Assembly: GCF_001650715.1 (NCBI RefSeq)
Contig: NZ_LWQT01000043.1
Span: 1-64,000, forward strand
Reading direction: 5' to 3'
DNA: 64,000 nucleotides
Origin: Paramagnetospirillum marisnigri
GTDB taxonomy: Bacteria > Pseudomonadota > Alphaproteobacteria > Rhodospirillales > Magnetospirillaceae
Position numbers and translations under genes: made by a program. The notes beneath the pieces are model-generated. The model did not search any database. It saw only the letters and a list, made by a program, of their open reading frames with translations, and was not told where the DNA came from. Of this stretch, positions 36,409-38,919 are shown piece after piece (positions within the stretch are counted from its first letter, which is position 1; every line of letters starts with the position of its first letter).

Positions 36409-37148
36409 AAACCATCAACCTCAATGCCGATCTGGGCGAGGGCTGTGGCGACGATGCCGCCATGCTGGACGTGGTGGCCTCGGCCAATATCGCCTGCGGC
36501 TTCCATGCCGGGGACGCCGCCATGATGAGCCGCACCGTGGCCGCCGCCATGGCGCGCGGCGTCGGGCTGGGGGCGCATCCCTCCTATCCCGACCGCGAGG
36601 GCTTCGGTCGTCGCGCCATGGAGCTGTCCGTGGCCGAGCTGGAAGCGGTGGTGGCCTGCCAGGTGGGCGCCCTGGCCGGGGTGGTGGCGCTGCATGGCGG
36701 CCATCTCGCCCATGTCAAACCGCACGGCGCCTTGAGCAACCGGGCGGCGGTGGAGTTGGATATCGCCCAGGCGGTGGCGCGGGCGGTGGCGGCGGTGGAC
36801 GGCGGCCTGATCCTGCTGGCGCCCGCCGGGTCCGCCCTGGTGGAGGCGGGGCGGCGGAGCGGGCTGCGGGTGGCGGAGGAAGTATTCGCCGATCGCACCT
36901 ATGATGACGAGGGTTATCTGGTGCCGCGCTCCTCGCCCCATGCCCTGATCCACGACCCCGCCGAAGCGGCGGCGCATGTGCTGCGCATGGCCCGCGACGG
37001 GGTGATTCGCAGCCTTTCGGGGCGCGAGATCGCCTGCCAGGCTCAATCGGTCTGCGTCCATGGCGACGACCCCGGCGCGGTGGCCCTGGCGCGCGCGGTG
37101 CGTGCCGCGCTGGCGTCTGCCGGGATCAAGATCATACCCTTGGGATAG
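36405..37148 (+). CDS. pxpA: 5-oxoprolinase subunit A (LamB/YcsF family)
   Basis: 247 residues. The N-terminal NLNADLGEGCGDDAAMLDVV, then NIACGFHAGDAAMM, GAHPSYPDREGFGRR, VKPHGALSNRA and CVHGDDPGAV are the family's metal- and substrate-binding blocks. It completes the PxpABC enzyme that recycles 5-oxoproline, a by-product of N-terminal glutamine cyclisation. The gene ends 20 bp before the putative -35 of the homospermidine synthase promoter. Confidence 0.94.
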   Translation: MKTINLNADLGEGCGDDAAMLDVVASANIACGFHAGDAAMMSRTVAAAMARGVGLGAHPSYPDREGFGRRAMELSVAELEAVVACQVGALAGVVALHGGHLAHVKPHGALSNRAAVELDIAQAVARAVAAVDGGLILLAPAGSALVEAGRRSGLRVAEEVFADRTYDDEGYLVPRSSPHALIHDPAEAAAHVLRMARDGVIRSLSGREIACQAQSVCVHGDDPGAVALARAVRAALASAGIKIIPLG

Positions 37149-37167
37149 AAAATTCCTCGGCGGGTGT

Positions 37168-37196
37168 TGCATCGCGGAAAAATGGCGGGTATATAC
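37168..37196 (+). promoter_or_regulatory. Promoter of the hss leader
   Basis: TTGCAT (37168-37173) and TATATA (37191-37196) are separated by exactly 17 bp, good matches to sigma-70 hexamers. Transcription would begin near 37203, leaving a leader of about 310 nt before the hss start codon. Confidence 0.65.
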
Positions 37197-37202
37197 CCCT
37201 TC

Positions 37203-37512
37203 AGTGACGCACACGCACGTGCCTATGGCCCTTGTCGGTTATGCAACGACGACCGCGTCCTTTTTGGAAGAGCCGACGGGGTTGGGTCGGCGCCCGAAAG
37301 GGAGGTGTAGATGTTCGTGACCCATAAGATGGGCTTCATCCCGGAAATCAGTACGAGTATGTGACGGCGGCTGTCGCGACCGGAACCATGGTCGCCTGCC
37401 GCCGCTGAGCATGAGCGCGGTCTCCTTCCCGGGAGACCGCGTGGAGGGCGTCGTTTTCGGGTTCAAGGGTCGGCTTCGACCGGCCAATGACTGAGGTAAG
37501 AGGAGGACCTTT
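37203..37512 (+). promoter_or_regulatory. Structured 5' leader with upstream ORF, putative cis-regulator of hss
   Basis: At least four strong hairpins can be drawn. GCCGAC/GTCGGC lies at 37272-37291, just before the uORF ribosome site. A 13-bp stem with one internal loop (37365-37404) begins directly after the uORF stop. A perfect 10-bp stem CGCGGTCTCC/GGAGACCGCG lies at 37416-37441, and GGTCG/CGACC at 37468-37481. The hss ribosome site GAGGAGG follows. The layout resembles a leader-peptide or riboswitch control of polyamine synthesis. I do not recognise a known RNA family; the alphaproteobacterial speF motif is the nearest idea. Confidence 0.55.
37311..37364 (+). CDS. 17-residue leader peptide (uORF) upstream of hss
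   Basis: An ATG with a very strong ribosome site (AAAGGGAGGTGTAG) opens a frame of 17 codons, MFVTHKMGFIPEISTSM, ending in TGA. A stable hairpin starts at the base next to the stop codon. The ribosome site is as good as those of real genes here, which argues that it is translated. Its role may be to sense translation speed or a polyamine, as leader peptides of other polyamine genes do, but that is inference. Confidence 0.5.
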   Translation: MFVTHKMGFIPEISTSM

Positions 37513-38919
37513 ATGCGCACCATTGTCTTTTCCGGCCGCATGGTCGTGATCGGCTGCGGCAGTATCGGGCAGGGCATCCTGCCGCTGATCCTGCGCCATA
37601 TCGACATCGACCCGGCCAGGATGACCATCATCACGGCCTGTGAACGCGGCCGCGAGGTGGCCCAGGAATACGGCATCACCTTCATCAACAAGGCGCTGAC
37701 CTCCGACGATTACCGCGACCGACTGACTCCCATGCTGCGCAAGGGCGACTTCCTGCTGAATCTTTCGGTGGATGTGTCGTCGGTGGCACTGGTCGAGCTG
37801 TGTCGCGATGTGGGGGCGCTTTACCTCGATACCTGCATCGAACCCTGGCCCGGCGGTTATACCGACCCCGGCCTGTCTCCGTCGCTGCGCTCCAATTACG
37901 CGCTCCGCGAGGAGATGCTGAAGCTGAGGGTTCCCGGCATTCCCATGCCGACGGCGCTGGTCACCCATGGCGCCAATCCCGGCTTGGTCTCGCATTTCGT
38001 CAAGCAGGCCCTGCTCAACATCGCCGCCGATACCGGGCAGGCGGTGGAAACTCCCCGGTCCCGCGATGCCTGGGCGGCGCTGGCGGCCCGGCTGGGCGTC
38101 AAGGTCATCCATGTCGCCGAGCGCGACACCCAGGTGGGATCGGTGCCCAAGGCGGTGGGCGAGTTCGTCAATACCTGGTCCATCGACGGCTTCGTCGGCG
38201 AAGGCTGCCAGCCCGCCGAACTGGGCTGGGGCAGCCACGAGAAGGAATTGCCGCCCGAGGGGCGCCGCCATGAATTCGGCGGCGGCAGCGCCATCTATCT
38301 GATGCGTCCCGGCGCCAGCCAGCGGGTGCGCACCTGGACCCCCACCGAAGGCCCGTTCCACGGTTTCCTGATTACCCATAGCGAATCCATCTCCATCGCC
38401 GACTATTTCACGGTGAAGAGCGGGGATGCCGTCAGTTATCGACCCACCGTTCACTATGCCTATCATCCTTGCGACGACGCCGTGGTGTCGCTGCACGAAC
38501 TGGCGGGCAAGAACTGGAAGATGCAGGAGCGCCAGCGCCTGATGGGCAATGAAATCACCGCGGGTATCGACGAATTGGGCGTGTTGCTGGCCGGTCATGC
38601 CAAGGGCGCCTATTGGTATGGCTCGCAACTGTCCATCGCCGAGGCCCGTGAATTGGCCCCCCATAACAGCGCCACCAGCCTCCAGGTCACCGCCACGATA
38701 TTGGCGGGGATCATCTGGGCGCTGGAAAATCCGGATCGTGGCGTGGTGGAGCCCGACGAGATCGATTTCGATCGCATTCTGGAGATCGCCAGGCCCTATC
38801 TCGGGCCGGTGGTCGGGGTCTATACCGATTGGAATCCTCTTCAGGGACGTGGTGAGCTGTTTCCCGAGGATGTGGACACCTCTGACCCCTGGCAGTTCAA
38901 GAATGTCCGGGTCCTGTGA
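37513..38919 (+). CDS. hss: Homospermidine synthase
   Basis: 468 residues, the usual bacterial Hss length. It begins with an NAD-binding fold (VVIGCGSIGQGILPLIL) and continues with LSVDVSSVALVELCRDVGALYLDTCIEPWPGGY, MPTALVTHGANPGLVSHFVKQAL and GWGSHEKELPPEG, hallmarks of the family. It makes sym-homospermidine from two putrescines with NAD as a catalytic cofactor. Homospermidine replaces spermidine in many alphaproteobacteria. AAGAGGAGG precedes the ATG, after a long structured leader. Confidence 0.96.
   Translation: MRTIVFSGRMVVIGCGSIGQGILPLILRHIDIDPARMTIITACERGREVAQEYGITFINKALTSDDYRDRLTPMLRKGDFLLNLSVDVSSVALVELCRDVGALYLDTCIEPWPGGYTDPGLSPSLRSNYALREEMLKLRVPGIPMPTALVTHGANPGLVSHFVKQALLNIAADTGQAVETPRSRDAWAALAARLGVKVIHVAERDTQVGSVPKAVGEFVNTWSIDGFVGEGCQPAELGWGSHEKELPPEGRRHEFGGGSAIYLMRPGASQRVRTWTPTEGPFHGFLITHSESISIADYFTVKSGDAVSYRPTVHYAYHPCDDAVVSLHELAGKNWKMQERQRLMGNEITAGIDELGVLLAGHAKGAYWYGSQLSIAEARELAPHNSATSLQVTATILAGIIWALENPDRGVVEPDEIDFDRILEIARPYLGPVVGVYTDWNPLQGRGELFPEDVDTSDPWQFKNVRVL

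Follow-up and report, generated by a model that had tools for sequence, protein, structure and literature searches.

The gene for homospermidine synthase (hss) in the 64,000-nt stretch of Paramagnetospirillum marisnigri DNA analysed here (the window) is preceded by a leader of 313 nt with a short upstream open reading frame (uORF). The question raised by this locus is whether the leader is a regulatory RNA and, if so, of what kind. A first-pass annotation, made from the letters alone, read it as a structured, polyamine-responsive leader for hss and recognised no described family in it. The promoter-like sequence, the 17-codon uORF, the stop hairpin, the 10-bp stem and hss were all found where that annotation placed them (Table 1), and the best structural match in PDB bears out the identity of the gene. 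The leader is structured as proposed, in that it folds better than 100 of 100 dinucleotide shuffles (z -2.75). Its 5' third is the most conserved part, and three further copies of this part occur in the same genome. The promoter-like site adjoins the conserved core on its 5' side. The site was not called by a strict sigma-70 consensus scan (TTGCAT matches at three of six positions), and the position of the transcription start is taken from the promoter-like site alone. The 5' arm of the stop hairpin begins one base 3' of the uORF TGA, and the hss ATG lies 148 nt 3' of the uORF stop.

Table 1. Features of the hss leader, in positions of the window
Feature	Position	Strand	Evidence
Promoter-like TTGCAT (37167-37172), 17-nt spacer, TATATA (37190-37195)	37167..37195	+	sequence; TTGC(A/G)T-N17-TATATA layout in 10 of 11 hss leaders printed
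Conserved leader core, homologue of the ar45 segment	37205..37267	+	R1, E 1.4e-17 in own genome (sequence in training set)
P1, 5' strand GACGC (partner 37255-37259)	37206..37210	+	covariation
Conserved loop CGCACGTGCC	37214..37223	+	alignment of hits
P2 hairpin ATGGCC/GGTTAT	37225..37242	+	85.1% of cells paired
Conserved loop GCAACGACG	37243..37251	+	alignment of hits
P1, 3' strand GCGTC	37255..37259	+	covariation
CTTTTTGG strand; can pair with 37294-37301, adjoining/overlapping the uORF ribosome site	37260..37267	+	
P3 hairpin GCCGAC/GTCGGC, inside the CTTTTTGG helix	37272..37291	+	covariation
CCGAAAGGGAGG, pairing strand plus uORF ribosome site	37294..37305	+	
uORF ribosome site GGGAGG	37300..37305	+	sequence
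uORF, 17 codons, MFVTHKMGFIPEISTSM (ATG 37311 to TGA 37364)	37311..37364	+	sequence
In-frame AGT ATG codons ahead of the uORF stop	37356..37361	+	AGT frame bias
Stop hairpin, CGGCGG from 37365 pairing with CCGCCG 37399-37404	37365..37404	+	sequence
Perfect 10-bp stem, arms 37416-37425/37432-37441	37416..37441	+	sequence
hss ribosome site GAGGAGG	37500..37506	+	sequence
hss, homospermidine synthase (ATG 37513)	37513..38919	+	best PDB match, E 1.7e-176

The core (about 63 nt) was searched for with R1, a 64-nt covariance model trained on 19 leaders from the window's own family that precede hss, a second ODC-like decarboxylase (DEC2) or a gene for a 59-aa protein. BLAST finds the element in 33 of 60 relatives; R1 recovered 19 of the 19 other loci previously found by BLAST, and it matches 40 of the 60 relatives and 61 of 385 alphaproteobacterial genomes. 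R1 E-values are rough, with about four false matches expected in the 385 genomes at E 0.01 per genome, and the six weakest matches of the class-wide search (E above 0.002) were left out of the loci. The loci come from three sources: the relatives, the class-wide R1 search, and a pattern scan of named genomes that gives lower bounds. Of 196 loci, 193 were parsed (L025, L027 and L051 stand outside the locus counts), and removal of 20 repeats, recognised by comparing 85 nt from the core motif, leaves 173 distinct loci among the matches listed. L001, L004, L005, L070 and L125 were removed as repeats before counting. Two loci from genomes of the window's genus are identical in sequence to loci of named Magnetospirillum records (L021 to L153, L040 to L173), which would place the window in that group.

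Two of the further copies in the window's own genome have the 5' part of the leader at 82% identity, each before a 59-aa gene. A fourth core (L100, G000:C48), found by R1, precedes the gene for ornithine decarboxylase (ODC). Two loci of this genome, L002 and L003 (C98, 195947-199083 and 167218-170354), have identical leader and listed ORFs 28.7 kb apart, which reflect either a recent duplication or an assembly artefact. When 33 stretches upstream of ODC genes in which no core had previously been found were searched, five matched R1 at E <=0.01 (L304, L314, L320, L330 and L331) and two showed both blocks, by letter search or by eye, short of that level (L302, E 0.044; L315); the other 26 gave no such match. 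The core is common, not universal, upstream of ODC genes. Two ODC leaders (L300 and L301) have related, altered blocks (CCCACGTRCC ... GGYAACGAGGTTACGGTGCG) and are perhaps a further divergent type.

Among the matches listed, 161 of the 173 distinct loci precede ornithine-type decarboxylases or hss (111 ODC, 31 DEC2 and 19 hss). Four others precede the 59-aa gene, and eight are unclassified (five contig ends, one speD-speE, one glutamine amidotransferase in frame and one unknown 136-aa protein). ODC and DEC2 each match lysine/ornithine decarboxylases in PDB. The leader is tied to polyamine genes and is not specific to hss. Thus, the first-pass view of a conserved polyamine-gene leader stands, and its restriction to hss is set aside, given that ODC, DEC2 and the 59-aa gene are preceded by the core too. 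This gene context suggests that the leader responds to polyamines.

In the relatives, 25 of 30 hss genes have a core upstream on the same strand, 17 of them at 229-380 nt and eight at 1.48-1.63 kb. DEC2 follows the core in five of the eight distant cases (G018, G023, G033, G024 and G034), and a DEC2-like ORF after the core was recognised by eye in two more (L027 and L051). DEC2 and hss thus look like one operon there. The five hss genes without a core include two at contig starts (G013 and G025) and three with no R1 match (G002, G022 and G046).

A few loci have other contexts. In L120 the genes after the core belong to the spermidine branch: an ORF that resembles speD by eye, and a speE-like gene. 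In L091 the first ORF after the core shares its frame with a glutamine amidotransferase, which lies outside polyamine synthesis. The 59-aa protein (MENW...) that follows the leader in L018, L038 and L002 has no Pfam or NCBIfam match. In L018, a 12-codon ORF resembling the start of DEC2 lies between the leader and the 59-aa gene, as if DEC2 had been lost and the leader retained.

The core alignment comprises 93 R1 matches (90 distinct). In P1, 97.4% of cells are paired and four of five pairs show two-sided changes; in P2, the weaker stem, two of six pairs do, and the length of the hairpin top varies widely. None of 500 shuffles reaches the paired cells or the covariation score observed for the whole core structure, and slid structures are 20-58% paired, compared with 90.7% observed. 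Only 11 cells hold two-sided changes, and as the alignment is fitted to R1 this count is biased in the model's favour. Rhizobial members have GCCC/GGGC in place of the P1 strands GACGC/GCGTC, with four of five pairs kept, and this replacement may be taken as an independent sign of P1 pairing. For P3, the 68 distinct sequences of the window's type are 81.8% paired, against 75.2% in shuffles, and include 32 two-sided changes, against 12.5 (0 of 500 shuffles in both cases).

In the same 68 sequences, 93.2% of cells are paired in the outer helix CTTTTTGG/CCGAAAGG. This is no excess (446 of 500 shuffles are at least as high), and there are no two-sided changes; the combined structure of outer helix and P3 is still 70-72% paired when slid by one column. 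When leaders of all types are considered, the ribosome-site strands pair best with their true partners: they score -10.93, whereas 200 partner swaps average -10.22 and reach -10.75 at best, in a set of 145 entries that includes a few repeats and with swaps that ignore kinship. In predicted folds, at least three of five ribosome-site bases pair with the first strand in 83 of the 145 entries. Because only one of five is paired in the window's own predicted fold, we regard masking of the uORF ribosome site as plausible and do not place it higher. Two other pairings were considered and rejected. For pairing of the transcript 5' end with the CTTTTTGG strand, 60 of 300 swaps equalled or bettered the true partners, and a control region gave a similar picture. 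A competing hairpin GACG(3-9)CGTC, present in 109 of 184 loci, was not seen by eye in rhizobial sequences.

Downstream of the uORF, the stop hairpin is kept in all 11 aligned close hss leaders and is nearly invariant, with no two-sided change among them. The post-uORF consensus of these 11 leaders has two-sided changes in two of 21 pairs. Both are in the second stem, which is the 10-bp stem (two of its eight pairs; the other six are broken in 2-4 of the 11 sequences). Windows at the uORF stop have mean fold z of -3.28 for hss, -1.55 for ODC and -1.00 for DEC2 (mononucleotide shuffles; 21, 59 and 28 entries, with a few repeats included). Covariation among relatives, by which the first-pass annotation would have its stems judged, is thus seen for P1, P3 and the second post-uORF stem, and not for the ribosome-site pairing or the stop hairpin. 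If the region were no more than a conserved promoter and 5' UTR of the ordinary kind, without any regulatory role, a promoter-like sequence next to the core would be accounted for. We consider this very improbable in view of the two-sided base changes in P1 and P3, the conservation across distant families and the occurrence before several enzymes of one pathway.

Does the leader belong to a known class? At gathering cut-offs, Rfam 15 has no family with a match in the window or in any of 46 loci, of which three belong to the window's own genome, and the models of speF (RF00518) and ar45 (RF02347) have no match in 37100-37560 even at E up to 10. The Rfam search for which the first-pass annotation called, RF00518 included, finds nothing here. 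The leader nevertheless has relatives among described families, as the core and the ar45 segment found 5' of the Rfam speF leader are homologous. R1 matches eight of 18 loci retrieved with the Rfam speF model, each directly 5' of the speF segment, and seven of the nine above the Rfam cut-off; two weaker matches elsewhere in speF-model loci look like chance. In Sinorhizobium meliloti, Rfam annotates ar45 and speF next to each other, in that order, ahead of odc2. The ar45 stretch is matched by R1 in S. meliloti and Thalassospira and weakly in Neorhizobium, and nothing is matched in the Methylobacterium ar45 copy. The R1 match at 294-446 of L334 (E 4e-4) coincides with ar45 at 295-442, and that at 386-472 of L335 (E 6e-5) with ar45 at 387-468; the match is weaker in L336 (E 0.03) and there is none in L338. 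R1 also matches the ODC leader of Ruegeria TM1040, where Rfam places neither ar45 nor speF. In that locus (L337, 593-640) the annotated ODC start (593) falls inside the core, and same-frame ATGs at 632 and 638 look like likelier starts.

Since the R1 matches lie at ar45, directly 5' of speF, the window has the 5' half of that leader, joined to another 3' half. We thus place the hss leader with the ar45/speF leader, as a divergent relative beyond the reach of Rfam 15. It resembles speF in preceding a polyamine gene, in conservation from near the transcription start and in a stem with a large variable insertion; the last two features are part of the account of speF by Corbino et al. 2005 (PMC1273637). 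The 5' stem and variable insertion of the extended 2005 element are found here, and R1 has its blocks and P1 in common with rhizobial speF loci. In contrast to speF, which lies before COG0019 ornithine decarboxylase, the window's copy lies before hss, and its 3' half is a uORF with an AUG start. The likeness to ar45 (SmrC45) consists of identical position and invariant blocks in S. meliloti and Thalassospira, more weakly in Neorhizobium, although the Rfam ar45 model has no match in the window and ar45 is classed there as a small RNA rather than as a leader segment.

In S. meliloti, ar45 is reported as a candidate for an independent RNA (PMC2573895). A second paper (PMC7717549) reports its independent expression in Bartonella and describes ar45 as functionally uncharacterised. 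On these accounts ar45 is possibly a separate RNA and speF a read-through leader. The core could then act by attenuation, P1 and a following U-run ending the transcript early to give an ar45-like small RNA and read-through making hss. The reported independent RNAs would fit this, as would the U-run in which the Rfam ar45 segment ends in both Sinorhizobium and Thalassospira. However, P1 has only five pairs here, the printed members from acetic acid bacteria lack a long U-run after P1, and a consensus scan for intrinsic terminators (hairpin plus U-run before a gene) finds no site in the window. We therefore consider attenuation by the core quite unlikely.

Another alphaproteobacterial ODC leader, the odc1 (uORF-25-1) motif, is described in PMC8632094 (2021) as having a sequestered ribosome site and a uORF, with UUG-N2-UUG start codons, a constant 11-aa peptide and a pseudoknot. 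The window's leader is similar in idea. It is set apart by that description, as its uORF has an AUG start and 17 codons and lacks the tested features (UUG-N2-UUG and an 11-codon uORF). A pattern for odc1-type starts gives 30 matches, against 30 for a reversed control. The literature searched, PMC11109978 included, contains no description of this hss leader; the comparison stops short of the speF revision of Greenlee et al. 2018.

The uORF has 17 codons in 16 of the 21 entries of the hss set (which include L153, a repeat of L021) and 14 codons in five entries from other families. In the window's genus, 15 of 15 examined hss leaders have 17 codons. L025, an hss leader from another genus of the same family and outside the 21-entry set, has a 14-codon uORF. 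For the 17-codon set, pN/pS is 0.54 in frame, compared with 1.18 and 0.83 out of frame; coding constraint was not seen for the 14-codon uORFs (0.99, n=5). The codon conservation looked for in the uORF is thus a property of the 17-codon set and does not extend to the 14-codon one.

Near the ends of 111 distinct uORFs, the serine codon AGT occurs in frame 87 times, against 7 and 5 in the other frames, and 72 of the 111 have it. The other 39 do not, among them the hss leaders L113, L116, L119 and L132. In 51 mutually dissimilar uORFs the counts are 31 in frame against 1 and 3, with 24 of the 51 carrying AGT, and 200 shuffles of these uORFs give an average of 6.9 and a maximum of 16 in frame. This frame bias implies selection tied to the reading frame. 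Together with the pN/pS value, it supports selection on the uORF, which is kept in relatives with its stop and the hairpin. We found no peptide motif common to all uORFs, AGT alone being widely shared; the peptides otherwise differ between lineages and have 7-59 codons among those listed.

A separate short ORF follows the core in 113 of the 173 distinct listed loci. In another 21 a long ORF begins at the first start site, and this is mostly the ORF of the enzyme (e.g., L023, L073, L084 and L101). The enzyme's own start, lying further on, is the first to be found in 13, and 26 lack a uORF by the criteria used. In L031, L033 and L044 the two passes of uORF picking took different ATGs. At least 24 distinct loci of the pattern scan, mostly from named acetic acid bacteria, have the core without a uORF. 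The uORF is thus not essential to the core. Some of the loci named as acetic acid bacteria, L143, L147 and L152 among them, have another conserved stretch, of TCGCTGGTCCGTTAGACCGTTTCGCAAC type, after the core and no uORF, a third output module.

In enterobacteria, a short ORF, SpeFL, lies before an ornithine decarboxylase gene, in which it is like the window's leader, and a metabolite stalls the ribosome on the leader peptide. The peptide here could likewise be the sensor, with a metabolite stalling the ribosome near the end of the uORF. The constant uORF length in the window's genus, the in-frame AGT near the stop and the stop hairpin would suit such a role. Against it, peptide length ranges widely whereas the upstream core hardly varies, and some lineages have no separate uORF. 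We find sensing by the peptide unlikely.

A start site directly behind the core and P3 is common to members with a uORF and members in which the enzyme starts there. Control of initiation at this site is therefore the simplest reading. We favour, at slightly better than an even chance, a polyamine-pathway leader in which the core gates initiation on the uORF and translation of the uORF gates hss. On this reading, the hss mRNA opens with the ar45/speF leader core of alphaproteobacteria in a divergent form, and the folded core directly precedes a hairpin whose outer strands adjoin, and partly overlap, the uORF ribosome site. The core would bind a polyamine-pathway signal, or a protein reporting such a signal, and would thereby set how often ribosomes start on the 17-codon uORF. 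Here we infer the existence of the signal, its relation to polyamines and the direction of control. The translating ribosome would then meet the AGU serine codon, where it may be slowed, and the stop. A ribosome near the stop may hold the stop hairpin open or let it close, and the state of the hairpin would set hss expression via translation, Rho or RNA decay.

The nature of the binder admits a further alternative, in which the core binds a protein, or Hfq with a small RNA, instead of a metabolite. Its invariant unpaired loops suit either binder, and PMC7717549, where it treats ar45, cites co-precipitation of the S. meliloti RNA with Hfq. In the binding experiments described for speF by Corbino et al. 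2005 (PMC1273637), none of six compounds bound, homospermidine not being among the six. Yet the link to one pathway would equally suit a metabolite of that pathway, and we regard binding of a protein or of Hfq as rather unlikely, though the strongest of the rivals to gating of the uORF by a core-bound pathway signal.

Comparison across lineages shows a conserved core with a paired P1, a P3 hairpin, a uORF under selection, its AGU codon included, a kept stop hairpin and a link to polyamine genes. A bolder proposal, which we advance as doubtful, is that ar45 and speF, each as one half, together make up a single class of polyamine-sensing RNA. The 5' core would be the sensor and the signal would be homospermidine or another pathway compound outside the 2005 set. 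The output would swap between a uORF, a direct enzyme start codon and the speF 3' domain, and the class would run the whole homospermidine pathway in Magnetospirillum and relatives.

In summary, speF, an orphan among regulatory RNAs since 2005, is now tied, together with ar45, to one conserved core, the range of which is widened to the window's group and to acetic acid bacteria. Together with its occurrence before hss, DEC2 and, in one genome, speD-speE, this defines a minimal RNA of about 63 nt and yields a short list of candidate ligands, headed by homospermidine. That one core is found with different output modules is also relevant to how uORFs come and go in leaders.
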